Source of the DNA: Siphonodentalium dalli
Lineage: Eukaryota > Mollusca > Scaphopoda > Gadilida > Siphonodentaliidae
NCBI GenBank assembly: GCA_032622095.1
Contig: CP136063.1
Location: 220,427,982-220,491,981, forward strand
Direction: 5' to 3'
DNA: 64,000 bases
The position numbers and the translations under genes were made by a program. Below, piece by piece: positions 8,058 to 29,964 of this stretch (the stretch's first letter is position 1; each line of letters opens with the position of its first letter). The notes under the pieces were generated by a model. The model did not search any database, was not told the DNA's origin, and saw only the letters and a list, made by a program, of their open reading frames with translations.

Positions 8058-9059
8058 CTATATAAATTCATTTCGAGTTGTTCCTGAACAGGATTTGATT
8101 CTAATTCGACATATAATCCTGATCGATTCTCTAAAAGTTTTAGAAAGTATAGTATATATTATTGAGTTAACACAACTGTTCACCATTACGGAAGTAATCG
8201 CAATTCCATTGAACAACACATGGTGCTTTATTCGCACCTCTGTTCGACGCAAAAAAGCCATCAGAAACATCGGGAATAAAAACACAAAGTAGCACAAAAC
8301 AACGACCGCACTCATAATGTTCATTTTTCGAGAAGCGAGACTTGGAACATTCGTGTGTTGTATGGTAGATTGTTGCTGTTTCCGCAGCTTGTACAGCTTT
8401 CCACAATGACATACTACCAGGAGGGTTAACGGCACAACGTAGTATCCCAGGAAGTATATGATAGTCAGTGATTTATCCATGATATTAGTTCGCGGCAAGA
8501 GAGCAACAACCGTCATAAAGATAATAGGTATTATCCAAGATCCAGCAATGAGAAGAAATGTATTTTTTTTCGTGACGTAAATCCTCGATCTGAATGGGTA
8601 GATTATAAGGAAATATCTCAATCCTGTGAAAATGACAATGTGCAATGCTGAAATAAACGCCAGACTGGAAGGAATGAATAATTTCATTACAGTATGAAAC
8701 ATTGTCCAGGAATGATCATCCCAGCATATATGGATATAATACACCAAGACATCCTCCAAGACACCGGTTTTGATAACGAAGAACACGACTACAAACATAA
8801 GATCTACTATTGCTAAGCTTGCTAAGATGATATACGTCGGGGTGTGTAACTTCTTTGTACGAGCTATTGTTAGTATCACCACACTATTACCGACCACACC
8901 CACTATCGCGGCGACAAGAAAAATCCAGAAGAAAACGCCATCTTGGTAAAGAATCGAATACCATGGATTTCTACATTCGCTTAACGACGAAATGTTCCAG
9001 GTGATGTTGTACTTGTTCAAATAATAATCTAACAACCACGAAGAAATATTCGAGGGCAT
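8058..9059 (-). CDS. Rhodopsin-like GPCR, tandem copy 1 (333 aa)
   Basis: Intronless class A seven-transmembrane receptor; ligand unknown. The N-terminus has three N-glycosylation sequons (N4, N18, N22). TM1 holds GNSVV (N58) and TM2 SLAIVD (D86). TM3 ends GLRYFLIIYPF, so the DRY acid is Leu147 next to Arg148. TM4 has W175 and TM5 P210. TM6 reads FVFLFP (P263) and lacks the CWxP tryptophan. TM7 reads NSCVNSIIY (298-302), so the NPxxY proline is Ser299. C112 sits at the top of TM3, but the second extracellular loop (about 186-197) has no cysteine to pair with it. The tail is 14 residues longer than in copies 2 and 3 because their stop is lost here. The start is the ATG of the MPSNISS motif shared by all copies. 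Plasma-membrane signalling is inferred from family; the broken motifs make coupling uncertain. Confidence 0.88.
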   Translation of the reverse strand: MPSNISSWLLDYYLNKYNITWNISSLSECRNPWYSILYQDGVFFWIFLVAAIVGVVGNSVVILTIARTKKLHTPTYIILASLAIVDLMFVVVFFVIKTGVLEDVLVYYIHICWDDHSWTMFHTVMKLFIPSSLAFISALHIVIFTGLRYFLIIYPFRSRIYVTKKNTFLLIAGSWIIPIIFMTVVALLPRTNIMDKSLTIIYFLGYYVVPLTLLVVCHCGKLYKLRKQQQSTIQHTNVPSLASRKMNIMSAVVVLCYFVFLFPMFLMAFLRRTEVRIKHHVLFNGIAITSVMVNSCVNSIIYTILSKTFRESIRIICRIRIKSCSGTTRNEFI

Positions 9060-9690
9060 TGCATCAGTTATCTAAATCAGCCAGCGAATTGGTCAAGTCA
9101 TAAAGTTCTAACACAGAAAAGCTCGAATGAGTTACCAAGTCACATGTCTCAATTCAGACGGAGCGCCATGCTGTATACCCAGCAGTTCATATACCGTCTT
9201 TGAAAAATGCTGACGAATGTGACCGTAGAGTGTGAATCTCCGTTAAATGGTCCGTAAAATAGGCGAATAATTCCGATCAGAATCTGCGGTAGAGTTCCAA
9301 TAAAACACCAGATGAATATTCCTGGCGTATATACAGCAGGTACTACGGTATTTGTCTGAAGTTTTATAACGAGAGGAACATTAGCTAAATGATATAAACT
9401 TTGGTAATGTTTGTATATATGACATCCATTGTCCAACTAACTCTTATCTGTACGTATCGCCATTTAGATTATTATTTTTGGAATATACTCAGGATAAATG
9501 CCATCTACAATCACATCCAGCCAACGTGCCATCTCTGAAGGTTACACTGGTGTAAATGTTTTCCATTGGCCTCAGTGCAAACGTTTTAGTGCATACTGTT
9601 TACAATATAATTCCCAGGTCAAACCTTTTATTTAAATATGAAACATTGACATTTGTGGAAACATTGTATGCAAAAAAATCATATCCGACC
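9060..9690 (-). promoter_or_regulatory. Conserved 5' flank of GPCR copy 1
   Basis: This block is homologous to the upstream sequence of copies 2, 3 and 4. Shared phrases include CAATTCAGACGGAGCGCCATG, GTGAATCTCCGTTAAA(T/C)GG, GGCGAATAATTCCGATCAGA, TGCGGTAGAGTTCCAATAAAA and CGCCATTTAGAT. The homology proves co-duplication. Whether it is promoter, 5' UTR or passive flank is not decidable here. No TATA box is conserved among copies. Confidence 0.5.
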
Positions 9691-9691
9691 A

Positions 9692-9711
9692 GGGGGGGGG
9701 GGGGGGGGGGG
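9692..9711. repeat. Poly-G tract (20 G)
   Basis: Uninterrupted run of G directly after the phrase ATCATATCCGACCA, where homology to the flank of GPCR copy 3 (27900-28022) ends. G-rich sequence continues near 9740-9760. Confidence 0.9.
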
Positions 9712-11129
9712 TCTGCAAAAAAAAAATCCGTATATAGGGTCGGGGTGGGTGGGTGGTCCAGAGGCCGAACAAATTGTGCTTGTAAATTTTTTCCAAAATG
9801 GGTTTTTTTCCAAACAATTTACAAGTACTGACCATGTAATGTTGTTTGTAAGCACGTTAGTACCATGCTTGTTGGTATAGGGCTATATAGGCAGCTAAAG
9901 TGACTCTTTAACGTCAGATTTGGCAACATTCTGGATTTCACAGGATCCCGGACCACTTCACAGTGGACCACCGTAATAGCGTTCAGGAAACTTATGATCA
10001 ACGGAAGAAATATTTAGTAACAAAATTAATATATTACCCAGTTGTATACCTAAATAAAAGTAATAAAACAGAAAAAACTGTATCACAAATTGGATACTAC
10101 ATGGTGAATACTCAATGATGACTAGATATCATTAACCTGATTGTTGCATAACATGAAATTGAAAAGGGTATCTCATAAATTTCTAATGTCTGAAATACTG
10201 TCTTGTTCTGGCATGTTATCAAATTCATTCCTTCTGGTTATTTCTCATATTGTATGATTGCAAGTAATGTTAATTTGCAACAATTATCCAAATAAAACTG
10301 AATTGGTTATGATGAATGACCGTTACTGTTTACTGCTCAGACAATCCCAACTGAAGGTGACGCTATTCTCATTGAATTTCCGAACTTTATCTTGGAGCAA
10401 ATTTGATTTTTGAGACAATGCAAATTTTTTGAGATTGGGTGCTGCTCAACAAGACTAAACTAAAATACTAATTGTATACTGTTATCACTTACAAATAGAT
10501 GAACTGAAATAATGTGATGCATTCAGATGCATTGAGAAATGACATTCAATTCTTCATTCTGGTCTATCACCATACCAAACCACATCAATATTCGACAACC
10601 GACACTTTACTTATATTGCAAAACCTTTGTACGGACTGAATTTCATAAAGTCGAACAGGGCCCATAACTCTGGTAGGCATTGATGGTCACAACCCGTGAT
10701 ATTATGCATATTCGTCCCCCATTTCTGGTCCGTCACCATGCCATAGGGCATCAAAATATGACAATCGACTCTTGAGTTATAATGCAAAATGTTTGTACGG
10801 ACGGATGGCTCGAGACGTCAACTATATACCCGCCGACTAATATCGGGCAGTATAATAACCATATATCTATGTGTATACCTAACCAAAAACAATCCCCCTT
10901 CCCACCCCACCCCGTTGGATAAGACTAAAGAGTTCTTTGGTCATGCACAAATAATTGTGGAACCCCTGACCTGTTTACCAATATTTACACTGGCCAGTGT
11001 TCTCTGTCAGACACAACACACTCGATATATTAAGGCTATAATGGGGTATAGGTCTAGGTCGAAGACGCCAGTTACAACTTTATGTCACTAGATTTTTATT
11101 TTAATGTTTGTTGTCACTTACAGTTTGGC
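9712..11129. other. Intergenic, with two related ~200-bp units at 10555-10805
   Basis: No gene was recognised. Between 10555 and 10805 two diverged direct copies share the phrases TCACCAT(A/G)CCA, ATCAA(T/A)AT, GACAA(C/T)CGAC and TTTGTACGGACGGA/TTTGTACGGACTGA, a pattern common in old invertebrate intergenic repeats. The segment at 11026-11090 (TCGAAGACGCCAGTTA ... TGTCACT) recurs at 13930-13985. Confidence 0.45.
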
Positions 11130-11135
11130 TAAAGT

Positions 11136-11159
11136 ACCGTATATACGGCACTTTAGCCA
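11136..11159. repeat. Short hairpin GGCTAAAGT / ACTTTAGCC
   Basis: Arms of 9-10 bp flank ACCGTATATACGG, itself palindromic, giving a 24-bp nearly perfect inverted repeat. Function unknown. Confidence 0.5.
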
Positions 11160-11280
11160 GTCCGTATAATATATGATCTTGAGCGCGTTACCAATTCTGA
11201 CATTGGTTTTCTTGTAGCATCCTTGTCTATCAAGTTTGAAGAATGTTGATGGGGTGTATACAGAGAATAATTGGATGGGG

Positions 11281-11787
11281 TGTAGATCGTGCCATGGAGC
11301 TCTACTATGGCTAACGCCCGCGGAGATCATATTCCACCAAAACCTGGGAACTTTTCGAAGTTTTGACAGGGAACTTTACAGTCCAAAATATAACGCGGGG
11401 AATATATTTCGTTGTTATTATATATTTCTTAATAATGTACTTCACTGTAGGTGAAGGTCCCAACTCGGAATTTCACGATTTAAGTGAATTTGTGAGCGAT
11501 GTTGCGTCGCGTCGCTTACAATTATGGCATTTATCCTGGGTAATTAATTCAATGTTTATTGCGATATCGGCTCACAAAAGTCATATAAGAGCATGCAGTT
11601 TTGAGTTGGGACATTCACCTGCAGTGAAGTACAGCATTGAGGAACAGATAATAATGCCAGTGTATTTTTTTAACTTTATAAGGTTCCCTGTCAAAACTTC
11701 GAAAAGTTCCTGGGTTTTGTATACTGCATGGTGGAATATGATCTCCACGGGCGTTAGTCAGAGTAGAGATTCATGGCATGATCTAAA
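11281..11787. mobile_element. 507-bp long-inverted-repeat element inserted in a dispersed repeat
   Basis: The left arm begins TGTAGATCGTGCCATGGAGC and the reversed right arm TTTAGATCATGCCATGAATC. They match for about 100 bp, including CTAACGCCCG, GGAGATCATATTCCACCA and AACTTTTCGAAGTTTTGACA. The flanks are TTGGATGGGG (11271-11280) and TGGGATGGGG (11788-11797), a target duplication of 8-10 bp with one mismatch. The uninterrupted host repeat at 25340-25370 reads TTTGATGGGGACATG once, which supports the insertion. Long arms with about 9 bp duplicated fit a Mutator-type non-autonomous element. Open frames inside it are chance. Confidence 0.7.
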
Positions 11788-11799
11788 TGGGATGGGGAC

Positions 11800-12022
11800 A
11801 TGACCATATAGACGGGCTATGAAAGTGATATTAGCGATGTTGTCCGACTAGGAAGATTATATACACGATACGATTTATTTGCGTAAACACAAATAAAGGC
11901 AGTATGCATGTTAACAATACAATTCATAATAAAACAATAATTAATAAACAGTTACATGTGAACATGGCATGTCTAGCTACATGCATTTTTAGTGTGTGAT
12001 TGCAAGCATATAATAATCATTA
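11800..12022. repeat. Continuation of the dispersed repeat hosting the 507-bp element
   Basis: GGGGACATG-CCATATAGACGGG-TATGAAA-TGA-ATT-TAGCGATGTTGTC is shared with 25360-25415. The rest of the interval is AT-rich with no recognised feature. Confidence 0.5.
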
Positions 12023-12190
12023 TGAAGGGATCAATTGGGGTACAATATGAGGAGCGCTATTGGGCTGCGTGTTGGGCTTATCGTCATGGAAACTATATAA
12101 GGTAGAAGCTCTCCCTTGACTTTTCGTAAAGATGCTGACCTATAAAGTAACACGAAAATCATAGTCAGAAATCGTTACGTCCTCAAGATC
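12023..12190. repeat. Dispersed repeat, copy 2
   Basis: Matches 6345-6480 over ATCAATTGGGGTACAATATG, GGAGCGCTATTGGGCTGCGT, GTTGGGCTTATCGTCATGGA and AGGTAGAAGCTCTCCCTTGA. The 40-bp piece amplified at 25.4-26.0 kb is present here once only. Confidence 0.65.
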
Positions 12191-12570
12191 ATATTAGTAT
12201 GCATTTATTACATTATCCTACTCCTATTCCATTCAATAAACACATTTTATAAACAACGTTCGTTCCATTACATAACATGTCACGTGTACCAAAATGTATT
12301 ATTGTTGCGCAAACGTTACCTTTTACTTCGGTTAACATTCCGTCTCAAAATAATATGGCTTCCAATATTTTTCCAACAAACTCTAATGAATGAAAAGTTG
12401 AAAAGTGATTTCATTAAATTTACGCCATTAAATATCGCATGTTTTATAAAAGCCGATGTTAGTTTCACATCTCATTTGTTGATTTTAAGTATGTTTTATC
12501 AAGGTTTTGGATCATTTAATAAATATAATCTGCAACTCGTCCCTAGTTTATATCGGAATTTACAAAGCGC
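12191..12570. other. Intergenic stretch, nothing recognised
   Basis: An open frame of about 110 codons (12284-12619) crosses this interval and enters the hairpin at 12571. It shows no family motif and is probably chance. Confidence 0.4.
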
Positions 12571-12629
12571 GTCCAGTAAATTAGGTCTGGACCTCACCAA
12601 AAACTCGGCCCAGACCTAATTTACTGGAC
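12571..12629. repeat. 59-bp hairpin with 20-bp arms
   Basis: GTCCAGTAAATTAGGTCTGG is mirrored by CCAGACCTAATTTACTGGAC across a spacer of about 18 bases. Perfect arms suggest a recent palindromic element or foldback. Confidence 0.65.
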
Positions 12630-12653
12630 TCGTTTTGGGGACGAGTGTAGACA

Positions 12654-13340
12654 GAGACGTGGCGACAGGGGTTTGGTGGGGGGGGGGGGGGGGGGTGTCT
12701 CACCCCCCAACTTTGGTCAAATTTCATACCTGCCAAAACATTAGTTGAAAATTTCACACCAACAATAGGTTGAAAATGTTCTTGTAGTTTGATTTTCAAA
12801 CAATTTATTCGGGGAATTAATTGTTTTTGGACCAATATTTGCATATTTGCATATTTTTTGTCAAAAGTTTGGTCTGAAATGGTCATCCGTTGGAAATTTT
12901 CCGACCTTAAGGGGGGGGGGGTGACAGGTTGGAAATTTCCAACACTTGGAAAGCTTGTGTCCTCGTCCCTCCCCCGTGGCCAGTCAAAAACTGCTAGTTA
13001 ATTTAAGAAAACAATATTGTCATACATTTGTTCAACATTGTCATTGGAATTGTCATCAGTTGGAAATTTTCCAACCTAAGTGGGGGTGTCAGGTTTGAAA
13101 TTTCCAACTCTAGGAAGACTTGAGGCTAGTCCAGATGCTAGGATTTTGGTAATTTTAGTTTAAAAAAACAATATTTTACTACATTTCTTCAAACTTGTGG
13201 ACTGAAATGGTCATCAGTTGGAGAATTTTCCAACTTGAGGGGGAGTATGAGGTTTGAAATTTCCAACACTAGCAAAGCTTCAGTTGAGGCCAGTCTAGAT
13301 GCTAGGATTTGCGATTTTTTTGTATAGTTTTCAAAATTTT
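12654..13340. repeat. Dispersed element (12654-13010) plus two further tandem ~160-bp pieces
   Basis: The first 350 bp are repeated in reverse orientation at 31860-32205, including CAATAGGTTGAAA(A/T)TGTT, TAGTTTGATTTTC, ATATTTGCATATTT and GGAAATTTCCAACA. Then GAAATGGTCATCAGTTGG, TTTTCCAAC, a G-rich piece, GGTTTGAAATTTCCAAC and GCTAGTCCAGATGCTAGGAT repeat twice more (about 13040-13195 and 13200-13330). The unit is rich in the self-complementary phrase TTGGAAATTTTCCAA. A poly-G tract lies at 12678-12695. No coding capacity. Confidence 0.7.
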
Positions 13341-13920
13341 CTCACACCGGGCCGAACAACCATGGCTGGCCCGGTGTGTGCTGGTCTCTTATCTGTAGAC
13401 GTGTGTATTTGTCTGGAATTAGACCACTAGATGTTTGGATTTATGCAAATTTTCAGGTTAAAATATCTGAATGTTCTCATACCGGGAATATAGAACCATG
13501 GTTTATGAATATATATTGTTGATATTAGGCCTGAGCACTGAGGTGCAAGGAGGTTACAAATTGAATTATGAAAAACTTGTGTTTGATTAAATTCTGATTC
13601 AAGGGGGGGGGGGGGGGTGCAGTTGGAATTTCCCAAGGAATATATTGGAGCTTCAATGTAGTGAATGTGAAAAATGTGTATATAGGTAACGGCTATATAG
13701 TTGATTCAATGTAATATTGTTTTGCATGTGTGTATATGTATAGTATGCGGTTGGTGAGAAAGCATGTAAAAAACATTTAAAATCGTACGTGCCAAACTAA
13801 AGTTATGATAGTAATGAAATATTTACACACCATGTGTGTTCACAAAGGGTGCATACATTCCAATTGGTTGAAAGGTTCATCGCCAAACATTCAACGGTCA
13901 TTGGATTGATACACCAACAA
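13341..13920. other. Intergenic, small hairpin and poly-G
   Basis: A short hairpin (ACACCGGGCC ... GGCCCGGTGTG) lies at about 13344-13378, and a poly-G run at 13603-13617. No gene was recognised. Confidence 0.45.
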
Positions 13921-15380
13921 GTACGCAAAGTCGAAGACGCCAGTTAGCAGAACTTTCTGTCACTCGATTTTTTATTTGAACGTTTTTGAGACATCAATTA
14001 AGGACGACAATTGTTACCACTTATTGGATTTAAAGACATATTGTGGACTTAACTTAATGAATAAAACTGGTTAGTGAATACCCAAACACTACCCCAGCAA
14101 TGAATTAAGATTGTCAAACATTCAACCACATTCTCTCTATCATCTCAGAGAACGCAACGTTTGATCTATACTCAAAATGAAAATAGTTGGTACTTTTTAC
14201 CGGACGAATTATTGAGTGATATACATAACTCAATTATTCCGCCAACAATATCTCCTGTGTGACGTCACAACAATATCCACTCCGTGCGCTTCGTCTGTAT
14301 CAATGACGTGGACTTATTTAATGAATAAAACTGACAAGTGAATACCCAGACTCTATCCCATTGTAGCAATAAACTAAGATAGGAGGTACTCTTAAGTGAG
14401 TCAGCACTTGTCCTCCAACCCCATTGTCTGTATAAAAATGTATGTGTCATTTCCTATGTGTTATTGAATCAGTTGAGTCTGTAAACTACAGCCGTCTGCG
14501 ATGTGATTTAATATACTTACATAATCAGTATAACGTCAGCACAGGTGAATTGTTCCAGAAAGCAACATATTCTAATATACGAGAGGACATAATCTCAAGC
14601 TGCAAATGAAAACCGTGAATAAGAACTTTGGGAAGTACTTTTCACGCAACGCGTAGTAGTTCATTGGAACAAACTTCCCGAACACGTTGTCAATGCCACT
14701 TCACTGACATAATTCAAATCCCAGATAGACAATCAACTGTACTGTCTGAAGTACATATATGATGAATGAGTTATTGTGACATAATGTATATAAGCAATTT
14801 CTTTTTGTATATCGGAACCAAAAGTCGAATGACTTGTTCCGACATATTTGATGGTGATTAATGATGCTGATGAATTTAGTCAAATAAATATGTTTAAACT
14901 AACTAAGATTGTCAAACATTCCAACCACATTCACTGTATCATTTCTGAGAACCCAACGTTTGAACTACGCAAAAAATAAAATATTTACTACAACGCACTG
15001 ATGTCAATGTGTACTACTACGCACTGATGTAAATGTTTACTACAACACACTGATGGTAAATGTTTACTACAACGCACTAATGGTAAATGTTTACTACAAC
15101 GCACTGATGGTAAATGTTTACTACAACGCACTGATGTAAATGTTTACTACAACGCACTGATGGTAAATGTTTACTACTACTACGCACTGATGTAAATGTT
15201 TACTACAACGCACTGATGTAAATGTTTACTACAACGTAATGATGTAAATGTTTCCTCCTTTATTCGGGACGAATTGTTGGGTGATAACATACGTCAATGA
15301 TTCCGCCAACAATATCCACTGTATGACGTCACAATGATAGTACTGTATGACTCACAGTGCTATCCATTGTAATGCATCGT
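13921..15380. repeat. Extended 3' flank of GPCR copy 2, internally duplicated
   Basis: The phrases GACATCAATTAAG, ACCACTTA(T/C)TG and TTTAAAGA(C/T)ATA-TGTGGACTT recur near 26015-26090, downstream of GPCR copy 3, so this is part of the duplicated unit. Within the interval ATTCCGCCAACAATATC followed by TGTG/TATGACGTCACAA occurs near 14240 and 15300, and AAGATTGTCAAACATTC-AACCACATTC near 14105 and 14905. No gene was recognised. Confidence 0.6.
15000..15255. repeat. 26-28 bp minisatellite (TTTACTACAACGCACTGATG)
   Basis: About ten units of TACTACAACGCACTGATG(G)TAAATGTT in direct orientation. Variation is mainly one or two bases in length (TGTAAA versus TGGTAAA) and an extra TAC triplet. Confidence 0.85.
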
Positions 15381-15800
15381 CTATATCAATGACGCTGTGT
15401 TCTGCCTACATGTACTTGGATACTAAAATTATGAAAATAACTAATTTGGGCAGGATTGTTTGCTACTCAGTTATGGACGCCACAATAGAATGTTTCGCAT
15501 CACTTTAAGCGTGTGTAAATGTATCTCTCGAAATGAACAAATTCCATGTCCTTCAGGACAGTAACAGGTCTGATCATAGTTCAGCGTGAGTGCCAAAAAG
15601 CTATATGTGGTGTAAAATTTCAAATTATGTTTTGTCCGGCAGGTAATTTCCAACTGTTGAACATTTTGACCAAACCCCCTGTCTCCACGTGGCGTCCCTG
15701 TGCAATCTCCCCACGTGGCGTCCCTGTGCAGTCTCCATAAACTGATTTATATATCTAAATTTATTTCGAGTTATTCCTGAACAGAATTTGAATTCCTATT

Positions 15801-16868
15801 TCAAAATCGACATATATTCCTGATCGATTCTCTAAAAGTTTTAGACAGTAAAGTATATATTATTGGGTTTACACAACTGTTCACCATTACAGAAGTAATC
15901 GAAATTTCAGTGAACAACGCAGAGTATTTAATCCGCACCTCTGTTTGACTCAAAACATTCATCAGAAATATCGGGAATAAAAACACAAAGTAGCACAAGA
16001 CAACGACTGCACTCATAATTTTCATTTTTCGAGAAGCAAGACTTGGAACATTCGTGTGTTGTGCTGAATCTTGTTGCTGTCTCCGCAGCTTGTACAGCTT
16101 TACAGCATGGCACATCACCAGCAGGGTTAACGACACAACGTAATAACACATCATATGTATTAGGAAAGTTTTTTGCATCATATTAGTTTGCGATAAGAGA
16201 GCATTAACCGTCGTATATATAATTGGTATTAGCCAAGCACCAGCAATGAGGAGAAAGGTATTTCTGTTTGTGACGTAAATCCTCGATCTGAATGGGTAGA
16301 TGATAAGGAAATATCTCAATCCTGTGAAAATGACAATGTGAAATGCTGAAATAAACGTCAGACTGTAGGAAATGGATATAGTTACAATAAAAAACATCAT
16401 CCAAGAATAAGAATCCCAGCACGCGCCGATATAATGAATAAGGACATCTTTCAAGACATCGGATCGATTAACGAAGAACACGACCACAAGCATAAGATCT
16501 ACTATTGCTAAGCTTGCTAAGATTATATACGTCGGCGTGTGTAACTTCTTTGTGCGAGTTATTGTTAGTATCACCACACTATTACCGACCACGCCCACTA
16601 CCGCGACGACAAGAATAATCCAGAAGAAAACGTTATCTTGGTAATGAATCGCCCCTAATGGAGTTATGCACTCGCTTCTCGGCGATGACCGCGACGAAAT
16701 GTTGCATGTGATGTAGCAGTACTCGTTCAAATAATCGAGTAACCGCGACGGAATGTTCCCGGTGATGTTGTACTCGTACAATAAATCGATTATCCGCGAT
16801 GAACTGTTCCGGTTGATGTTGTACTCGTACAAATAATCGATTAACCGCGACGAAATATTCGAAGGCAT
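15801..16868 (-). CDS. Rhodopsin-like GPCR, tandem copy 2 (355 aa)
   Basis: Intronless class A receptor, paralogous to copies 1, 3 and 4; ligand unknown. The N-terminal ectodomain is longest of the cluster. Three repeats of 17-18 residues with SR(L/I)(I/L)D at steps of 17 (SR at 7-8, 24-25, 41-42) add the sequons N21 and N34 to N4 and N56. TM1 holds GNSVV (N96) and TM2 SLAIVD (D124). C150 tops TM3, which ends GLRYFLIIYPF with Leu184 where an acid is usual and Arg185. W212 is in TM4. The TM5 proline of copies 1 and 3 is Ser246. TM6 reads FVFLFP (P299) without tryptophan. TM7 keeps NPIIY (334-338), followed by SKTFRESI in helix 8. The second extracellular loop has no cysteine. The protein ends ICRF. 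Surface location is inferred from family. Confidence 0.88.
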   Translation of the reverse strand: MPSNISSRLIDYLYEYNINRNSSSRIIDLLYEYNITGNIPSRLLDYLNEYCYITCNISSRSSPRSECITPLGAIHYQDNVFFWIILVVAVVGVVGNSVVILTITRTKKLHTPTYIILASLAIVDLMLVVVFFVNRSDVLKDVLIHYIGACWDSYSWMMFFIVTISISYSLTFISAFHIVIFTGLRYFLIIYPFRSRIYVTNRNTFLLIAGAWLIPIIYTTVNALLSQTNMMQKTFLIHMMCYYVVSLTLLVMCHAVKLYKLRRQQQDSAQHTNVPSLASRKMKIMSAVVVLCYFVFLFPIFLMNVLSQTEVRIKYSALFTEISITSVMVNSCVNPIIYTLLSKTFRESIRNICRF

Positions 16869-17657: not shown

Positions 17658-18145
17658 TTGTGTTTTCCTAACAAAATATTATGGAAGAATACAGCACAAA
17701 ATTGCGCCGACACACTGTATGCTTCAGAGTGGTCTCAAAGGATTCGCAACGATCAGAGTTTATCTCGCTTCCAAAAACTTCATCCAGTGTTACGTGTCGG
17801 CGACATTTGGAAAATATGTAAATGTGACCCAGAAAACAGTTCCAAATATCTTACTGTATCTAAATTAATCAATCAAACAAAACAACAAGAACAGATTCCG
17901 TGTGTCAATTGTGAGAAATTGACAAATGATGTGGTTCTGCACACTACAATATAATGCAATGCTATATCTGCTGTTAGAAATGAGTTTGAGTATGACATTA
18001 TGAATACATTTGGAATTAAATTGTATTTACTATATGATTCACTATTACCTGATGACAAATTGTGTACACAACTCGGTCGCTTGCCTGACTCTGATGATGT
18101 TCATGTAATATTTGACGGGCCTGATTGCAGTAAATTCTTCTTTAA
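17658..18145 (+). pseudogene. C-terminal relic of a non-LTR retrotransposon ORF
   Basis: The translation contains C-x2-C-x8-H-x4-x-C (CVNCEKLTNDVVLH, stop, C), the zinc-knuckle-like module near the C-terminus of many LINE polyproteins. Compare C398-x2-C401-x8-H410-x4-C415 of the LINE at 21.9-23.3 kb. One in-frame TAA (17952-17954) breaks it, and the same frame then continues to 18145. There a TTAA-flanked element (18146-18537) interrupts it. After the element the frame reopens at 18542 for about 20 codons. The upstream limit is unclear; no reverse transcriptase core is present, so the copy is 5'-truncated. Family assignment within LINEs is not possible from this piece. Confidence 0.6.
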
Positions 18146-18537
18146 CCCTTTACCCAACAGAACGGCCCTGTGCCAATGCATTCTCTTATATATGCGAGTC
18201 GACCATAGGTCGCCTCGCATATATAAGAGAATGCATTGGCTTAACACATTAAAAATTATAAAATTGTTAAAGAATGTAAGAAAAAATGGTAAAAAGTGTT
18301 AAAAAAAAGATTTTTTTTAGGCCAATGCATTCTCTTATATATGCGAGGCGACCTATGGTCGACTCGCATATATAAGAGAATGCATTGGCACAGGGCTAAC
18401 TGTAACTATCACAATGTGGTCAAGGAGCCGGTTCCAATGATATCCATATTTGTATGGTTCTATTGAGACAGACCGAAGATATTTTAGGCTGTTGAAGCTT
18501 TATTTGGCCGGTTTTGGCCGGTTTGTTGGGTAAAGGG
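18146..18537. mobile_element. 392-bp TTAA-flanked element carrying a nested hairpin element
   Basis: TTAA flanks both sides (18142-18145 and 18538-18541), and the ends are CCCTTTACCCAACA and its reverse complement TGTTGGGTAAAGGG. TTAA duplication with CCC-starting inverted repeats is typical of piggyBac-type non-autonomous elements. Inside, 18166-18395 begins CCCTGTGCCAATGCATTC and ends with its reverse complement. Each of its two arms is itself a 70-80 bp hairpin, so four copies of the arm are present. The insertion splits a LINE relic. Confidence 0.78.
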
Positions 18538-18699
18538 TTAAATATGCTATCAAATTATGGCATATATACATACCACTTGTTTGCTGGCCTAAATGCAATC
18601 ATGTAAACCCATCATTCTAAGGTACACTTAATATAGCTACACATTAAGTATCAACATAAACTCTATTATATACGGCATTTACTGTTAAGTGTAACAAGA

Positions 18700-20568: not shown

Positions 20569-20640
20569 CTCGTGAAAATAAACACACTACTGGGATAAAT
20601 TCGCAATGAAATAAGCCGATATTGCGCTTATTTTCACGAG
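20569..20640. repeat. Inverted pair CTCGTGAAAATAA / TTATTTTCACGAG
   Basis: Perfect 13-bp arms about 45 bases apart. They could be the ends of a small element; no target duplication was recognised. Confidence 0.45.
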
Positions 20641-20649
20641 GACAGGCTG

Positions 20650-20870: not shown

Positions 20871-20937
20871 TATATAGTTAGTATAATGGAAAATGCATTC
20901 CGTTATCTCGATAACTGTGAAGGTAAGCGGTGAAATA

Positions 20938-21690
20938 TGAATGTCGGAGGTTTCCACTATTATTATATTGTATCTCTGAATGTCGGGGGTTTCGCTGTCA
21001 ATATATTGTGTCTGAATGCCTGGGGTTTCGCTGTTAATATATTGTGTGTCTGAATGTCGGGGGTTTCGCTGTTAATATATTGTGTGTCTGAATGTCAGGG
21101 ATTTCCACTGTTATTATACTGCATATCTGAATGTTGGTGGTTTCGCTGTTAATATATTGTGTGTCTGAATGTCGGGGTTTTCGCTGTTAATATATTGTGT
21201 GTCTGAATGTCGGGGGTTTCGCTGTTAATATATTGTGTGTCTGAATGTCGGGGGTTTCGCTGTTAATATATTGTGTGTCTGAATGTCGGGGGTTTCGCTG
21301 TTAATATATTGTGTGTCTGAATGTCGGGGGTTTCGCTGTTAATATATTGTGTGTCTGAATGTCGGGGGTTTCGCTGTTAATATATTGTGTGTCTGAATGT
21401 CGGGGGTTTCGCTGTTAATATATTGTGTGTCTGAATGTCGGGGGTTTCGCTGTTAATATATTGTGTGTCTGAATGTCGGGGGTTTCGCTGTTAATATATT
21501 GTGTGTCTGAATGTCGGGGGTTTCGCTGTTAATATATTGTGTGTCTGAATGTCGGGGGTTTCGCTGTTAATATATTGTGTGTCTGAATGTCGGGGGTTTC
21601 GCTGTTAATATATTGTGTGTCTGAATGTCGGGGGTTTCGCTGTTAATATATTGTGTGTCTGAATGCCATGGATTTCCACTGTTCACATAT
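20938..21690. repeat. 38-bp satellite (CTGAATGTCGGGGGTTTCGC...)
   Basis: About 19 direct units of 38 bp (for example starts at 21051 and 21089). Units in the middle are almost identical and those at both edges diverge, the usual pattern of unequal exchange. The array abuts the 3' end of the LINE fragment at 21707. Confidence 0.92.
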
Positions 21691-21706
21691 TGCATTTGGC
21701 CATAAA

Positions 21707-23285
21707 GTTGATTGATTGTGATTGTTTATTAGCAAAGCCAACAGTTAAGTTGGAACATGCAATAACATATATACATACTATACACAAGGCACACATAACA
21801 TATAAGTCATATCAATAAAAATACATACACACACAATTATATTGTAATCCATGATGCCATTTACATTAAAGTGGTATCCTTTTTAAAGATAGTTTTATGA
21901 ATATGCTTACTTTTTAAAGAAGGCTCAAATATTCAATTGAGAGCAAACGATGAAATTTATTCCTGTTAAGGTTCTCCCAGTAATATTTGGGAATGTGGAT
22001 TTCGCGTAAATCTTGTAACTTTTGGCATACGATTATAAAGTGATATTCGTCGCAAGGACTGTTCTCACATAAAACACACTTTAAATTGTCTGCGGAATTT
22101 GTGGTTTCTTTTGACCATCTATTTTTTTCTACTGGTAATTTATGATTAGATGTTCTGATTTTCAATAGGTAATTAGACAAATGAGATGGCAAATAAACTA
22201 AATAGCTACTCATTTTCATGGACTGCTTTATGTCTCTGTAAAATATGGCGCGCGATGAAGTAGAAGCATTCAGATTTTCAAAGAGTTGGTGCTCATACTT
22301 CTTAATCAGTAGCGATTTTATGTTTCTCAACTCTGTTTTGCTCAGCGCTGATTGGTTTGTCCACACATGTTCCATGTGTAGGTCATGTAGAATTCCTTCT
22401 ACAAAACATACCCAATTCATCTTATTTTGCAGTTTTGTATCCCTCTCGTTTATATATCTGAGTAAAAGAAATATATTCTTGGCTAGCTCTGATCCTTCGT
22501 GTGAAACTAGCTTGGACCAGTATGCTAGAGTCCTGTATTTTATTTCAATCAATATAGGATATCTACCAAGTTCGGCATAAACCATGTAATTAGGCGTACT
22601 AGATTTCATTGAGGTAACTATTTTACAAAATTTCAAATGGAGCGTCTCGAGACTTTGAACTTTTTCAAAGCACCAAACTTCACTTCCATATAACATAATT
22701 GGCATAACCATAGCATCGAATAACTTGAATAAGATATCTAAAGGTAACCTCAGTTTTCGAGTTCGATTCAGTAGACCGTACATTGCTTTCGTTGCGGTAA
22801 TTGTGGTGTCTTTAAGAGATTGGCAAAATCTCCCATTGTAGAAGAACTTGATACCAAGATATTTAAATTCCTTTACAAATTTTATTTCTTGCCCTCTGTA
22901 TATAAATATGGGCATATTTCTTGGTAATTTGTTCGTAAATATAATAAGTTTGGTCTTGAGAGTATTCACTTCAAGTTTCCATGCCTCGGCGTAGTCGGCA
23001 AAGGCTAATAGAGCACGGTGCATATTTTCCTCAGAATCTGACAAGATAACCGTATCGTCGGCATATAACAAACATAATATGCTAATAAAACATCCAATAT
23101 GTTCAAAATATTTCTCATCTAAAAAATGTAGGTTTAAAATGGCACAATCGTTTAAAAAACATTGTAAATCGTTTACGAAAAGAGAGAATAAAAGTGGTGA
23201 CATTGTCTCTCCTTGAAATAAACCTACCTGGCTTATGAAGAAACCTGACTGAACATTATTATTTTGCACACGTATATGCTCTCAC
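21707..23285 (-). pseudogene. 5'-truncated non-LTR retrotransposon with reverse transcriptase C-terminal half
   Basis: The minus-strand frame (stop at 21914, open back to a TGA near 23284) encodes about 450 residues of a LINE reverse transcriptase. GLFQGETMSPLLFSLFVNDL (residues about 16-35) is the finger/palm motif. LLYADDTVI holds the catalytic Asp pair (Y69 A70 D71 D72). The thumb follows with PIMLYGSEVW. Near the C-terminus is C398-x2-C401-x8-H410-x4-C415. The endonuclease and the N-terminal half of the RT are missing, so the copy is 5'-truncated and cannot move by itself. The frame from YADD to the stop is nevertheless intact, suggesting a fairly recent insertion. On the minus strand AATAAA and a short AATC-type tail (about 21707-21730) mark the probable 3' end. 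A CR1/Jockey/I-like clade is likely but not resolved. Confidence 0.85.
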
Positions 23286-23606
23286 TACTGCACATGTTAT
23301 TATGGAAAACTGATTGATTTAAAGGCCCACTTAATTTCGGTCACCAGATCACATTATACACAATATATATTAGCCATATTATATACCATTTGAACGAGGA
23401 AGCTCCAAACCATTGTATAATTAATTTAACTGTGAACATATTGTTGTTGTCAATGTGCTTAATTTCTATCTGGTCTGTACTGCCAATTTATTATTCTCAT
23501 TGGGAGGGGAATAACTCTATCTCTTGGTTGTGAATTATGATGTATTCTGGGGTAAATAGCGGGGGACGTACTGTGGTGAATCTGAGTTCCGTATTCTGAT
23601 GGAATA
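23286..23606. other. Intergenic stretch, nothing recognised
   Basis: No gene or repeat was identified between the LINE and the Helitron-like elements. Confidence 0.4.
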
Positions 23607-24072
23607 TCTACCATATATTTTGGGACTTCTGTCTGTCTGTTAGCTATGGCCGGGAAAACTGCCGGACGGATTGAGCCCAAACTTCCTATCTAAGGGTAAA
23701 ATCCCACATGAAGTGTCATCGCATCGCTTCTGAGAACGTCAGAGCACTCCTTCTCCATTCCCAGTCACAAAAATGACCGTCATTGGGGTTCCAAGGAACG
23801 GGGGAGATTTTCATCGGGTAAGTTTTTCCGCCCGAGGACCCACAAACGTACCTCTTTTAGGGACGGGTACTATCACGGGACGGGTACCATCATTTCTCTT
23901 GATTAAAAAGGCAGAATTAACTCAAATTAAATTAAAAAAATAATTTGATACCTAGGGATACTTTTGTCGGGGGAGTGTTTTCGACTGGTCAAATCGTGAC
24001 CTCGACCTGACCCTGACCTTCAAAATGGTCAATACAAGGTCAAAGCCCGGACGAAGTCGGGTCACCTGCTAG
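23607..24072 (+). mobile_element. Helitron-like non-autonomous element A
   Basis: It starts TCTACCATATATTTTGGGAC after an A and ends in a GC-rich hairpin (GCCCGGACGAAGTCGGGT, 24044-24061) followed seven bases later by CTAG and then T. A TC start, a 3' hairpin shortly before CTRR and insertion between A and T are the hallmarks of Helitrons. The 5' start is inferred from similarity to element B, both having TATATTTTG-GAC-TCTGT-TGTCTG. No Rep/helicase is encoded. The inner part has GGCCGGGAAAACTGCCGGAC and polypyrimidine phrases. Confidence 0.55.
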
Positions 24073-24717
24073 TCTCATATATATTTTGAAGACCTCTGTT
24101 TGTCTGCCTGTCTGTATGTATGTTTGTTTGTCTGTCATTTATACAAATCTACGATTCTCGACCGATCGGAACGAAACTTGGTACGTGTGTGTAGTTTGAC
24201 CAGGCGGTGGACGTTGTCGTATTGGCGAGCCCGTGCGGCGCCCGCTTCGCGCATGCGCAGACGAGATCTCGGAAACGGATGGAGCTATCGACTTGAAATT
24301 TTCTATGTGAATGTACCTTGCCCCGGATACGAATTTTATCGGGTCGCCGAGTCCGTGCGACGCCAGCTTCGCGCATGCGCAGAAGAGATCTCGGAAACGG
24401 GTGGAGCTATCGACTTGAAATTTGTCTGTCTGTCTGTGTGTATGTATGTATGTCATTGATACAAATCTACGATTCTCGACCGATCGGGACGAAACAGCTT
24501 CGCGCATGCTCAGACCAGATCTCGGAAACGGGTGGAGCTATCGACTTGAAATTTGGTATGTGAATGTATCTTGCCCCGGATACGAATTTTATCGGGTCGC
24601 CGAGCCCATGCGACGCCAGCTTCGCGCATGCGCAGACCAGATCTCGGAAACGGGTAGAGCTATCGACTTGAAATTTGGTTTTTGAATAGCCCGGACAACG
24701 TCGGGCTCATCGGCTAG
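24073..24717 (+). mobile_element. Helitron-like non-autonomous element B with internal tandem repeats
   Basis: It begins TCTCATATATATTTTGAAGA immediately after the CTAG of element A. It ends with the hairpin GCCCGGACAACGTCGGGC (24689-24706), seven bases and CTAG (24714-24717) before T. The centre holds four units of about 122-128 bp, each with AGATCTCGGAAACGGGTGGA, GCTATCGACTTGAAATTT and GCTTCGCGCATGC. The Arg-rich frames on both strands here are repeat by-products. The central tandem repeats resemble those known from bivalve Helitron-related elements (family knowledge, not tested here). Confidence 0.65.
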
Positions 24718-25239
24718 TATTATATATTTTGGTTCATCTTCCAAATGGTATATACTATGGGATATGTTGTGTATGTTATCTGGGCATTCGAAAATTAAGT
24801 GGGCATTAAACATAATTAATATAGTTACAATAATAATACTATACTCCCTCCCAACAAATATATTCATTCATAGAATAATGAGTTATATTAGAATTCAACG
24901 ATTCATCGTGAATTTAATTTTTCCAACGATGTCATGTGTGTCGCAATATAGGAAATCAAACAATTTCTGAAGATGTGAATGTGTATAAGAGCCAAACATG
25001 CAATGCTATCTCAAGTTTACATGTTTATTATGTGAATTTGACTGTTCTAGCTATTAAAATGCAATTTAGTTCAACATAAACTCCATCTAGAGTTATAAAC
25101 ATGTTGGTGTTGATAATTCAGGTGGTATTCATTTGGGAACACTAATTTAGTGTATCGTGATCTGTATCATATCGTTGATCATGTATCGTAATTCGTATCG
25201 TATCGTGACCAAGTATATCGTTACAGCCCTAAAACATAT
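24718..25239. other. AT-rich intergenic stretch
   Basis: A small run of GTATCGT(A/G)-type repeats occurs at 25150-25225. No gene was recognised. Confidence 0.4.
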
Positions 25240-25500
25240 ACTGACAAACTTTGGAATGACGAATATAGGATGTAAAGTGTTTGTTATATAATCCTTGGAT
25301 ATCAAGTTTGAAGAAAAAAGTGGATGACATGGGGTGTATATAAGGGGATAATTTGATGGGGACATGTCCATATAGACGGGGTATGAAATTGACATTATAG
25401 CGATGTTGTCTGACTATAGAAAGAATAATAAAAAGTGAAGGGGTCAATTGGGAGACAATATGATGAGCATTATTGGGCGGCGTGTGGGGCTTATCGCCAG
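25240..25500. repeat. Dispersed repeat, uninterrupted copy leading into the 40-bp satellite
   Basis: Shares ATCAAGTTTGAAGAA, GGGGTGTATA, GGGGACATG-CCATATAGACG and TAGCGATGTTGTC with 11225-11280 plus 11790-11860, and TCAATTGGG-ACAATATGA with 12030. It gives the empty-site view of the 507-bp insertion at 11281-11787. Confidence 0.65.
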
Positions 25501-26005
25501 TGAGGAGCGTTATTGGGCGGCGCGTGGTGCATATCGCCAATGAGGAGCGTTATTGGGCGGCGTGTGGTGCATATCGCCAGTGAGGGGCGTTATTGGGCGG
25601 CGTGTGGTGCTTATCGCCAGTGAGAAGCGTTATTGGGCGGCGTGTGGGGCTTATCGCCTGTGAGGAGCGTTATTGGTCGGCGTGTGGGGCTTACCACCAG
25701 TGAGGAGCGTTATTTGGCGGTGTGTGGGGCTTATCGCCAGTGAGGAGCGTTATTGGGCGGCGTGTGGTGCATATCGCAAGTGAGGAGCGTTATTGGGCGG
25801 CGTGTGGTGCTTATCGCCAGTGAGAAGCGTTATTTGGCGGCGTGTGGGGCTTATCGCCTGTGAGGAGCGTTATTGGGCGGCGTGTGGGGCTTACCACCAG
25901 TGAGGAGCGTTATTTGGCGGTGTGTGGGGCTTATCGCCAGTGAGGAGCGTTATTGGGCGGCGTGTGGGGCTTAACAAATTATCGCCAGTGAGGAGCGTTA
26001 TTGGT
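25461..26005. repeat. 40-bp satellite (TGAGGAGCGTTATTGGGCGG...)
   Basis: About 13-14 direct units of exactly 40 bp (for example starts at 25501 and 25541), each ending CTTATCGCCAG or close variants. A single equivalent unit is present in the dispersed repeat copies at 6365-6405 and 12048-12090, so the array grew from a piece of that repeat. A larger period is visible: units near 25620-25740 and 25820-25940 share the same variants. Confidence 0.9.
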
Positions 26006-26482
26006 CGCTTTTGAAACATCAATTAAGAAACCAGAACGGCATATGTTACCACTTACTGTATGGCTTTAAAGATATAGTGTGGACTTCTTTAATGAATACA
26101 ACTGATAAGTGAATTTACAGGCAATATCCCTATATTGGAAGGGATACTAGCATTGTGCAACTAATTTGAGCAAGAGTATTTGTTACTTCGTAGTGGACAA
26201 AACAGTTGAGTGCTTCGCGTCACTTTAAAAGAGTGTTATTGTATTTCTTGAAATGAACAAATGCAATGTCCTTGCGGACAACAACCGGTCTCATCATAGC
26301 AAACCGTGAGTGCCTAAAAGTTATACGTGGTGTCAAATTTCAAACTAATGTTGTGACAGGCAAGCAATTTCCAACTGTTAAACATTGACCAAACCAAGTG
26401 GTGTCCCTGCGCAGTCTGCATAAACTGGTTTATCTATCTAAATTCACTTCGAGTTATTCCTGACCAGAATTTGAATTCCTAT
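26006..26482 (-). repeat. 3' flank of GPCR copy 3, shared with copies 1 and 2
   Basis: Homologous to 13985-14110 and to 15480-15800 (TTTCGCATCACTTTAA, AAATGAACAAAT-CAATGTCCTT, GTGAGTGCC-AAAAG). This shows that the duplication unit extends several hundred bases downstream of the receptor. Confidence 0.65.
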
Positions 26483-27388
26483 TCAAAATCGACATAAATT
26501 CCTGATCGATTCTCTAAAAGTTTTAGAAAGTAAAGTATATATTACTGGGTTAACACAACTGTTCACCATTACAGAAGTAAACGAAATTCGTTGGAACATC
26601 ATATTGTTTTTAATCTGCACGTCTGTCTGATTCAAAACACCCATCAGAAACATCGGGAATAAGAACACAAAGTAGCACAAGACAACGACTGCACTCATTA
26701 TGTTCATTTTTCGAGAAACGAGACTTGGAACATTCGTGTGTTGTATGGTAGATTGTTGCTGTTTCCGCAGCTTGTACAGCTTTACACCATGGCACACCAC
26801 AAGCAGGGTTAACGGCACAACGTAGTAACCCAGGAAGTATATAATAGTCACTGATTTATCCATGATATCAGTTTGTGGCAAGAGAGTAACAACTATCATA
26901 AGGACAATAGGTATTAGCCAAGCACCAGCAATAAAAAGAAAAGTATTTCTTTTCGTGACATAAATCCTCGATCTGAATGGGTAGATGATAAGGACATACC
27001 TCAATCCTGTGAAAATGACAATGTGCAATGCTGAAGTCAACGGAAAAATGAAGGAAATTGTGAATTGAGTTACAGTTAAAAATATTATCCAAGAAAAAAT
27101 ATCCCAGCACACACGGATATAATTTACCAAGACATAGTCCAGGACATCGGATTGAGTAACGAAGAACACGACCACAAGCATAAGATCTACTACTGCTAAG
27201 CTTGCTAAGATGATATACGTCGGGGTGTGTAACTTCTTTGTACGAGCTACTGTTAGTATCACCACACTGTTGCCGACCACGCCCACTACCGCGACGACAA
27301 GAAGAATCCAGAAGATTAGGCCATCTCGGAAAATAATCGGATCCCGTGAATATCTACATTCGCTTCCTGAAGAAATGTTCGAGGGCAT
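26483..27388 (-). CDS. Rhodopsin-like GPCR, tandem copy 3 (301 aa)
   Basis: Intronless class A receptor, the shortest intact copy. Its N-terminus lacks the DYLYEYNIT repeat and has one sequon (N4) before TM1. Landmarks are GNSVV (N40), SLAVVD (D69), C94 at the top of TM3, GLRYVLIIYPF with Leu129 for the DRY acid and Arg130, W157 in TM4, P192 in TM5, FVFLFP (P245) without the TM6 tryptophan, and NPVIY (280-284) in TM7. SKTFRESI and a short CRF end follow. A sequon NQT at 253 falls in the third extracellular loop. There is no cysteine in the second extracellular loop. TM5, TM7 and helix 8 are the most canonical of the cluster, so this copy looks closest to the ancestral form. Ligand and G-protein partner cannot be inferred. 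Confidence 0.88.
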   Translation of the reverse strand: MPSNISSGSECRYSRDPIIFRDGLIFWILLVVAVVGVVGNSVVILTVARTKKLHTPTYIILASLAVVDLMLVVVFFVTQSDVLDYVLVNYIRVCWDIFSWIIFLTVTQFTISFIFPLTSALHIVIFTGLRYVLIIYPFRSRIYVTKRNTFLFIAGAWLIPIVLMIVVTLLPQTDIMDKSVTIIYFLGYYVVPLTLLVVCHGVKLYKLRKQQQSTIQHTNVPSLVSRKMNIMSAVVVLCYFVFLFPMFLMGVLNQTDVQIKNNMMFQRISFTSVMVNSCVNPVIYTLLSKTFRESIRNLCRF

Positions 27389-28025
27389 TGTTTCAGTTAT
27401 CTAAATCAGCCAACGAATTACTCCAGTGTCAAATTTATAACACAGAAAAGCTAGAATGATATACTTAGGCACGTGTCTCAATTCAGAAGGAGCGCCATGT
27501 TGTACATCAAGCAGTTCATATCCCGTCTTTGAAAATTCTGAAGCATATGAGCGTATACTGTGAATCTCCGTTAAATGATCCGTAAAATAGGCGAATAATT
27601 CCGATCAGAATTTGCGATAAAGTTCCAATAAAATTATAGATGAATCTTTGAGCGATATTTTTGGTGTACATCAGCTACCACGGTATTTGTTTGACGTTTG
27701 AACGAGAGGAGCATTAGTTATATCATATGAACTTTGGTAATGTTCGGATATGACATTCCTTATCCGACTGACTCTTATATGTCCGTATCGCCATTTAGAT
27801 AATTATTTTGGAATATACTCAGGCTAAATGCCATTTACAATATCATCCACTCAACGTGCCATCTCTGAAGGTTACACTGGTGTAAATGTTTTACATAGGC
27901 CTCAGTGCAAACGTTTTAGTGCATACTGTTTACAATATAATTCCAAATAATAAGTCAAATTTTTTATTTAAATCTGAAATATTGACATTTGTGGTAACTT
28001 TTTATGCAAGAAAATCATATCCGAC
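27389..28025 (-). promoter_or_regulatory. Conserved 5' flank of GPCR copy 3
   Basis: Homologous to the copy 1 flank along its full length, ending at ATCATATCCGACTA (about 28023), where copy 1 runs into poly-G. It contains GTGAATCTCCGTTAAATGAT, GGCGAATAATTCCGATCAGA, CGCCATTTAGATAATTAT and GCCTCAGTGCAAACGTTTTA. Regulatory role is inferred only from retention in all copies. Confidence 0.45.
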
Positions 28026-29065
28026 TAGCTTAATTTATTGTGTATATCTTAAATAAAATGATAAATATACGTTTCATGCTTTCTTCTGTTTTGCTAGCTC
28101 ATTATCCGTTTTAACACGCACGATTTGATTCCTCGTATCATTTGAGAAGGTCGTTTATGAATTTGATGGTAATCGGCACTAAACATATTGTTTTTATAAG
28201 TTTTGGTGACCCTCCCGTCCCTATTTCAGACTGAAGCAGCTCCATTTTTGTCATCATTAAACCACACACTTAGACTCATTATGGAAGTGCATATATATAA
28301 AATTGGTAAAAATTGGCGAGTATACAAATTCGTATCAAATTTAGGACACCCATATGTCTCGCCCAAACGGCACCAATTTGGCGTATCTAAACCACACGAT
28401 TAGATTCCTCATATATCAGGGAGAAGAATATGTATCGATCTGGTGGAAATCGGCGCTAAAATAAGTTTTATCAATTTTGGTTCCCCTCTCCCGAACGGCG
28501 CCACTTTTGACATATTTAAACCACACCATTAGATGCCTCATATCATGGGAATGATTATATATAAGTTTCGTGGCAATCAGCGACAAACATGTTTTCTGCC
28601 CTCCCCATTTTCTGGCCCTGACAATAACGGCATCACTTTAGAAAATTGTAACCCACACCATTATCTTTCTCGTAAAAAGTTACCCCAAGTAGACCCCTTT
28701 GGTGCCATCTAGATGGCCCTTCGGCGCTAAAATTAGTTTGATCAATTTTGGTGTCCCTCTCCCCTTCCGTGCATCCCTTAATCGAACGGCGCCACTTTCG
28801 ACATATTTAAACCACACTATTATAATCCTTTGGGATGATTATATATCAGTTTCGTGGCAATCGGCGACAAAAAATATTTCTGCCCCTCCCCCTTTTATGC
28901 CCCTGACAACAAAGGCGTCACTTTAGAACATTCTAACCCCCATCATTATCTTTCTCGTAAAAAGTTACCCCTATATAGTAGACCCCATTGGTGCCATCTA
29001 GATGGTCCCCTGTGAATTTCTATAGAACACAGACAGACAGACAGACATTCGCAAATATAGATATA
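28026..29065. repeat. Repeat block that replaces the 3' end of GPCR copy 4
   Basis: Degenerate direct units share CGGCGCCACTTT(T/C)GACAT, ATTTAAACCACAC-ATTAGAT, GTTTCGTGGCAATC(A/G)GCGACA, TCTTTCTCGTAAAAAGTTAC and GGTGCCATCTAGATGG (28495-28720 and 28785-29005). The right end is a short GACA microsatellite (29032-29047) followed by ATAGATATAGATAG. It directly abuts receptor sequence at about 29066. A microsatellite-ended insertion is the simplest reading; the left limit is not defined. Confidence 0.6.
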
Positions 29066-29964
29066 GATAGTATATATTATTGGGTTAACACAACTGTTCG
29101 CCATTACTGAAGTAATCGCAATTCCATTGAACAATATATAGTTTTTAAACGTCTGTTTGATTCAAAACATTCATCAGAAACATCGGGAATAAAAACACAA
29201 AGTAGCACAAGACAACGACTGCACTCATAATGTTCATTTTTCGAGAAGCGAGACTTGGAACATTCGTGTGTTGTGTTGAATCTTGTTGCTGTTTCCGCAG
29301 CTTGTACAGCTTTACACCATGGCACACCAGCAGCGGGACGGCACAGCGTAGTAACCCAGGAAATATATGATAGTCACTGAATTTTCCATGATATCAGTTT
29401 GCGGCAAGAGAGTAGCAACTATCATAAAGATAATAGGTATTAGCCAAGCACCAGCAATGAGAAGAAAAGTATTTCTGTACGTGACGTAAATCCTCGCTCT
29501 GAATGGGTAGATGATAAGGAAATATCTCAATCCTGTGGAAATGACAATGTGAAATGCTGAAATGAACGGAAGAATGGAGGAAATGGTATGCGTTACAACA
29601 ACAAACATACCACAAGAACGAATATCCCAGCACACACGGAAATAATGTACCAAGACACCGGTTTCGATAGCGAAGAACACGACCACAATATAAGCATAAG
29701 ATCTACTACTGCTAAGCTTGCTAAGATGATATACGTCTGGCTATGTAACTTCTTTGTGCGAGCTATTGTTAGTATCACCACACTATTACCGACTATACCC
29801 ACTACAGTGACGACAAGAAAAATCCAGAAGAACCCGCCATCTCGGAAAAGATACGGCACAAATGTATTTATACCCTCGCTTCTTGGTGATGACCGCGACG
29901 AAATGTTCCCGGTGATGTACTCGTACAAATAATCGAACGCCGGCGACGAAATATTCGAGGGCAT
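29066..29964 (-). pseudogene. Rhodopsin-like GPCR, tandem copy 4, broken
   Basis: Fourth paralogue, starting MPSNISS and with one DYLYEYITGN unit. The frame is intact through TM1 (GNSVV) and TM2 (LAVVDLML). It then shifts at a 5-base insertion (about 29690), runs through TM3 (GLRYFLIIYPF), TM4 and TM5, and shifts again at a net 4-base loss near 29325. After TM6 (FVFLFP) it meets a stop created by a deletion near 29145. TM7 up to NPIIYT lies in another frame. The helix 8 motif SKTFRESI and the 3' flank present in the other copies are absent, replaced by the repeat at 28026-29065. Three frameshifts plus truncation mean no receptor is made. Similarity to the intact copies is still high, so the decay is not ancient. 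Confidence 0.88.

Follow-up and report, generated by a model that had tools for sequence, protein, structure and literature searches.

The receptor genes lying on the minus strand between positions 8058 and 29964 of a 64,000-nucleotide stretch of the Siphonodentalium dalli genome (contig CP136063.1; hereafter the window) were analyzed. The assembly containing the window comprises 2.23 Gb in nine contigs. The genes are three intact intronless class A G-protein-coupled receptor (GPCR) open reading frames (ORFs), named A, B and C, and a broken copy, D. On sequence evidence they belong to a real, maintained class A expansion whose switch positions are altered, and which is lineage-specific to the extent that a single genome allows this to be judged. 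The interpretation that we favour, and consider rather probable, is that the window holds a small cluster of an intronless family of at least 30 genes, which would evolve by birth and death in the manner of chemoreceptors and would have retained G-protein coupling with a changed mode of switching.

Receptor copies and their class A positions

The tandem group had originally been predicted to contain three intact frames, which is confirmed, with the broken D in addition. All receptor features below are on the minus strand. Copies A (8058..9059, 333 aa), B (15801..16868, 355 aa) and C (26483..27388, 301 aa) match Pfam 7tm_1 with E-values of 2.5e-21, 1.8e-23 and 6.1e-23 respectively and scores of 77-84 bits (cut-off 30.5); their mutual identity is 72-74%. 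In B, an in-frame repeat of 51 bp (17 aa) at 16688-16860, most units of which contain an N-glycosylation sequon, extends the N-terminus. Copy D (29069..29964) is a pseudogene: the start and the first two transmembrane helices (TM1-TM2) are open as far as 29593, where the frame breaks, and homology stops at 29069, short of the C-terminal (3') end.

To assign motif positions, the proteins were aligned with canonical class A receptors from the same genome. As claimed in the original prediction, Leu replaces the acid of the D/E-R-Y motif, giving LRY at 3.49-3.51 (8613..8621 in A, 16311..16319 in B, 26996..27004 in C), and FLFP replaces CWxP at 6.47-6.50 (8271..8282, 15972..15983 and 26654..26665); both are read directly in the three intact copies and are legible in D. 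The absence of cysteine from the second extracellular loop (ECL2) also holds in A, B and C. Because most of the aligned canonical receptors read D/E, W and C in these three columns, the departures exceed chance. Two further changes, unmentioned so far, are found in all intact copies of the window: His for the canonical Tyr at 5.58 (8406..8408 in A, 16107..16109 in B, 26789..26791 in C) and Phe for C6.47. A His at 3.42 (8640..8642, 16338..16340 and 27023..27025) is a signature of the family.

The three copies retain N1.50, D2.50, S3.39, R3.50, Y3.51, W4.50, P6.50, N7.45, N7.49 and Y7.53. The class A helix anchors N1.50, D2.50, R3.50, W4.50, P5.50, P6.50 and P7.50 are present save for S5.50 in B and S7.50 in A, the latter giving NSxxY for NPxxY. 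The features in which the copies depart (L3.49, L6.48, absence of C3.25 and of C45.50) are usual but not obligatory in class A. With 7tm_1 scores over the cut-off and nearly complete anchors, A, B and C are assigned to the class A (rhodopsin-type) GPCRs.

Distribution of the family in the genome

The shared departures had been taken as the mark of a lineage-specific subfamily. A set sharing them, lineage-specific on the evidence of this one genome, does exist, but they are not confined to the tandem group. The genome was searched with four different family members as single-protein queries and with a motif table, which yielded at least 30 genes in which position 3.49 is aliphatic, position 3.42 is His (or Gln), and both W6.48 and C45.50 are absent. 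H5.58 is present in 28 of the 30 family genes, the exceptions being L026 (Asp) and L027 (Asn), and the family retains R3.50, D2.50, S3.39 (one Ala), P6.50, N7.49 and Y7.53. Its loci form clusters on C3, C4, C6, C8 and C9, with singletons on C1, C5 and elsewhere. The original prediction had named close relatives with canonical motifs as a sign that the copies are decaying. No such relative was found: all relatives down to about 26-30% identity share the changes, so this refutation fails.

In a maximum-likelihood (ML) tree the family forms one group against the canonical receptors of the same genome, with a Shimodaira-Hasegawa-like approximate likelihood-ratio test (SH-aLRT) value of 96; the group also includes the outlying L034 and L072. 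When the seven trait columns were removed and long branches excluded, the 29 remaining rows still fell on one side of a branch (94.9), and on the tree without trait columns the loss of C45.50 and the gain of H5.58 each appear as a single change. Since the family forms one clade and single changes suffice, the departures go back to an ancient shared ancestor and have been maintained since. The tree thus indicates one event or one short series of events, not 30 independent ones, and makes the departures older and wider than the tandem group of the window. The frame of the outlying L034 looks intact; its residue 3.50 is Thr, so that R3.50 is absent, and its residue 7.49 is Lys.

Of the seven close copies in the genome, A, B, C and L004 (the last on C1) have intact frames; D and two others, located on C4 and C1, are broken. 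Homology between copies extends beyond the coding region on either side, over 1,965 bp for A and C; as the flanks were duplicated together with the genes, copying took place at the DNA level, both in tandem and dispersed.

Selection on the two halves of the receptor

The ratio of nonsynonymous to synonymous substitution rates (dN/dS) was estimated over A, B, C and L004 with hand-written codon models. The one-ratio model (M0) gives 0.88, which is not different from 1. A value near 1 had been proposed as evidence of decay; it is indeed found on average, but it is misleading. When codons are divided by receptor topology, the ML estimate is 0.45 for the cytoplasmic half (twice the log-likelihood difference, 2dlnL, against a value of 1: 13.1) and 1.19 for the extracellular half. 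Tree-independent pairwise estimates agree with this division, ranging from 0.31 to 0.45 in the cytoplasmic half and from 0.69 to 1.18 in the extracellular half. The altered 3.49, 5.58 and 6.48 sites belong to the cytoplasmic half, which is under purifying selection, whereas 27 of the 28 fast-class sites (posterior >0.95) are extracellular. Model M2a is preferred to M1a with a 2dlnL of 52, or of 28 once codons within four of an indel are dropped, compared with at most 2.1 in the ten replicates of the null simulations; the fast-class value of 4.8 is not to be read literally. The mean of 0.88 is best described as a mixture of a conserved cytoplasmic and a diversifying extracellular half, which looks neutral only in appearance. 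In the second family cluster analyzed, on C8, dN/dS is 0.24 and positive selection was not detected.

These values bear directly on the possibility that the genes are decaying pseudogenes whose shared changes are inherited damage. One of the four window copies and two of the three dispersed close copies are broken, the mean dN/dS is indistinguishable from 1, and P7.50 is lost in copy A and P5.50 in copy B, all of which would fit decay. Against it stand the cytoplasmic value, significantly below 1, and the survival of the frames: a neutral walk of equal length leaves a stop-free frame in only about 0.2-8% of trials per copy. Moreover relatives that are 26-50% identical still show the same motif states, as does the cluster with a dN/dS of 0.24. 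The pseudogenes, used as a neutral control, gave cytoplasmic values of 0.29-0.61; this control is uninformative because the three are of recent origin and past selection still marks their sequences. Neutral decay as a full account is rejected on the half-by-half dN/dS and on ORF survival, and we regard the pseudogene explanation as very improbable. The earlier view that random decay is not involved is therefore upheld in spite of the mean of 0.88 and of three pseudogenes among seven close copies, because the cytoplasmic half is under purifying selection.

The same contrast applies to a second alternative, in which the proteins would be atypical (decoy or scavenger) receptors that bind ligand but do not couple to G proteins. 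Residues 3.49, 5.58 and 6.48, all related to coupling, are altered together, as such receptors would allow. However almost every member retains R3.50 and NPxxY, and conservation is highest on the cytoplasmic face, which would not be expected had coupling been lost; we judge this alternative improbable.

Cysteines and the structural disulfide

The claim that the TM3 cysteine is kept does not stand. The residue concerned lies 36 residues before R3.50 in A (8724..8726) and C (27107..27109) and 35 residues before it in B (16419..16421), compared with 25 in the canonical receptors of the genome. The spacing from D2.50 to R3.50 is 61-62 in the window copies and 52 in canonical receptors. An excess of about 10 residues in the TM2-TM3 segment places the cysteine in the first extracellular loop (ECL1) and not at C3.25; in the intact close relative L004 the position is occupied by Phe. 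C3.25 and the ECL2 cysteine being both missing, the canonical disulfide has lost two partners and not one. This pair is lost across the family, with a Cys at 3.25 in L011 only.

An N-terminal cysteine (8973..8975 in A, 16668..16670 in B, 27356..27358 in C) is a possible partner of the ECL1 residue. The two co-occur in A, B, C, L005, L006, L007 and L011, and L004 lacks both. Other branches are arranged differently: in L013-L015 the ECL1 cysteine is lost and an ECL2 cysteine is present instead, the C8 group has one cysteine atop TM1 and one atop TM4, and most members of the C6/C9 group have none. This census is consistent with a tether whose partner has moved.

Comparison with known receptor systems

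The Mas-related GPCRs (MRGPRs) are lineage-specific sensory receptors. One of them, the vertebrate MrgD, resembles the family in having Q3.49 for D/E and S6.48 for W and in lacking both C3.25 and C45.50 (PMC9287403). The three departures listed in the original prediction were thus already known together, and their combination has a precedent. The replacement disulfide of MrgD is C4.64-C5.33 (PMC9287403), a pair conserved in MRGPRs and unmatched in A, B and C, which have no Cys at the top of TM4-ECL2-TM5; the replacement cysteines of the window family lie in the N-terminus and ECL1. The sodium site, absent in MrgD, is kept here, and H5.58 and H3.42 are not described for MrgD (PMC9287403). There was no MRGPR among the best 60 Protein Data Bank (PDB) matches, by sequence or by profile, and these matches therefore give no sign of orthology with the vertebrate receptors. 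The resemblance is likely to be convergent.

ORF74 of Kaposi's sarcoma-associated herpesvirus (KSHV) also combines an aliphatic 3.49 (VRY) with the absence of Trp at 6.48, where it has Cys (PMC12462484, PMC3414077). Unlike the family, it is a single viral gene of chemokine-receptor descent that has neither D2.50 nor N7.49 and retains Y5.58. The AcCRa-c receptors of Aplysia are closer in genomic behaviour, being mostly intronless tandem rhodopsin-type expansions of a marine invertebrate with a changed DRY and a retained R3.50 (PMC2700072); a non-LTR (long terminal repeat) retrotransposon lies between two of the Aplysia copies (PMC2700072), as a fragment of apparent non-LTR type does between B and C. 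Their motif is however ERC, which keeps the acid at 3.49 (PMC2700072), and their ITAFxTFERC motif, spanning TM3 and the second intracellular loop (ICL2), also described in PMC2700072, is absent from the window proteins, which have HIVIFTGLRYFLIIYPF in its place. The flatworm PROF1 receptors are likewise intronless and lineage-specific and have lost W6.48 (PMC3261222), but they keep D3.49 and have NFxxY for NPxxY (PMC3261222), the opposite of the LRY and NPxxY found here. On these features the window family fits none of the four systems, to which it adds a retained sodium pocket, H5.58 and H3.42 and a different cysteine arrangement.

A separate set of expanded receptors in the same genome, L073-L079 (on C3, C7 and C9), has ER[F/L/T], T/S/A at 6.48 and NF7.50xxY and retains the canonical disulfide; its TM6 and TM7 changes are similar to those of PROF1.

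Two of these systems raise the possibility that the receptors are constitutively active and ligand-independent, loss of the 3.49 acid and of W6.48 making them on by default so that expression level would be the output. ORF74, with VRY and Cys 6.48, is constitutively active (PMC12462484, PMC3414077), MrgD, with Q3.49 and S6.48, has high basal activity (PMC9287403), and CXCR2 is activated by D3.49V (PMC3414077). Yet ORF74 was not greatly affected when its VRY was turned back into DRY (PMC3414077); the motif alone is thus no predictor of basal activity. The family also keeps D2.50, S3.39, N7.45 and N7.49, unlike ORF74 (S2.50, V7.49) and MrgD, which has no sodium site. Constitutive activity moreover poorly explains an extracellular dN/dS of 1.19 with nearly all fast sites on that side: rapid evolution of the ligand side speaks for dependence on ligand, and the ligand-independence suggested in the original prediction is not supported. 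We consider ligand-independent signalling rather unlikely.

Proposed mode of switching

A chemoreceptor-like family that still couples to G proteins accommodates both halves of the molecule. The diversifying outer half suggests that each copy binds a different external ligand, which may be a chemical or peptide cue, and R3.50, NPxxY and the conserved cytoplasmic face suggest that the frozen cytoplasmic half couples all copies to one common G protein. In the canonical scheme R3.50 is restrained by D3.49 as long as the receptor is inactive and held by Y5.58 once it is active, and ligand binding is relayed by W6.48 (PMC12462484, PMC3414077). Here the D3.49-R3.50 restraint and the W6.48 toggle would be gone, with His at 5.58 replacing the Tyr that normally caps active-state R3.50, and the inactive state would probably be looser than in canonical receptors. 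Since the changes fall on 3.49, 5.58 and 6.48 and spare the residues of the sodium pocket, this pocket and TM7, with its NPxxY, are the likeliest carriers of the switch. In the window branch the lost disulfide may have been replaced by a pair between the N-terminus and ECL1.

A bolder proposal, to which we give little credence, is that the switch network of the whole clade departs from that of other class A receptors. The aliphatic 3.49, H5.58 and H3.42 would replace the D3.49 and Y5.58 partners of R3.50, W6.48 would be dispensed with, the disulfide would have moved to the N-terminus-ECL1 pair, and switching would run through the sodium pocket and NPxxY; the His residues being titratable, gating could be pH-sensitive.

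Several points weigh against the chemoreceptor-like interpretation and its structural details. The chemosensory role is drawn from gene-family behaviour only, and immune or neuropeptide receptors can behave alike. Clade support without the trait columns is slightly below 95. Like dN/dS, dS is reduced on the cytoplasmic side (0.17-0.21, compared with 0.29-0.42 in the extracellular half), and the parsimony-informative sites conflict (16/12/10); some gene conversion is therefore possible and may inflate both the half-by-half contrast and the M2a result. The cysteine co-occurrence comes from no more than eight or nine independent rows. An AlphaFold2 model of B, computed with A and C, was too poor to use, its predicted local distance difference test (pLDDT) score being 39.5.

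Repeats and mobile elements of the window

A reverse-transcriptase fragment (21914-23281, minus strand; RVT_1, E-value 2.6e-12) lies between B and C. It has a C-terminal Cys/His motif and is of non-LTR type by appearance. A segment of about 400 bp with inner inverted repeats (18141-18542) is 97-98.5% identical to stretches adjoining L004 and L006 on other chromosomes, and about 110 bp of it are also matched next to L007; these matches identify it as a young mobile element near several receptor copies. Long minisatellites with 90-96% matches occupy 36982-38332 (64-bp units), 20938-21665 (38-bp units) and 25461-25973 (40-bp units). The last array is directly downstream of copy C, and a similar array flanks the C4 pseudogene copy. 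Between 47526 and 63348 there is a tandem segmental duplication of about 8 kb, whose halves (47526-55515 and 55518-63348) are 95-98% identical. Minisatellites of 42 bp at 54751-55515 and 62582-63998 are open on both strands, and the ORFs of 216-233 aa found there were rejected as genes, being artefacts of the 42-bp repeats.

Significance of the family

The family offers a natural experiment on how class A switching could operate when three textbook elements are missing but the sodium pocket and NPxxY remain. MrgD and ORF74 cannot separate these contributions, because sodium-pocket or NPxxY elements are lost there too. The family also shows that a lost motif should not be equated with a dead receptor, and that a mean dN/dS near 1 can conceal opposite regimes, the signalling half being conserved and the ligand half diversifying. 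Known from one genome, the family would be one more chemoreceptor-like expansion of independent origin, in this case in a marine-type invertebrate.

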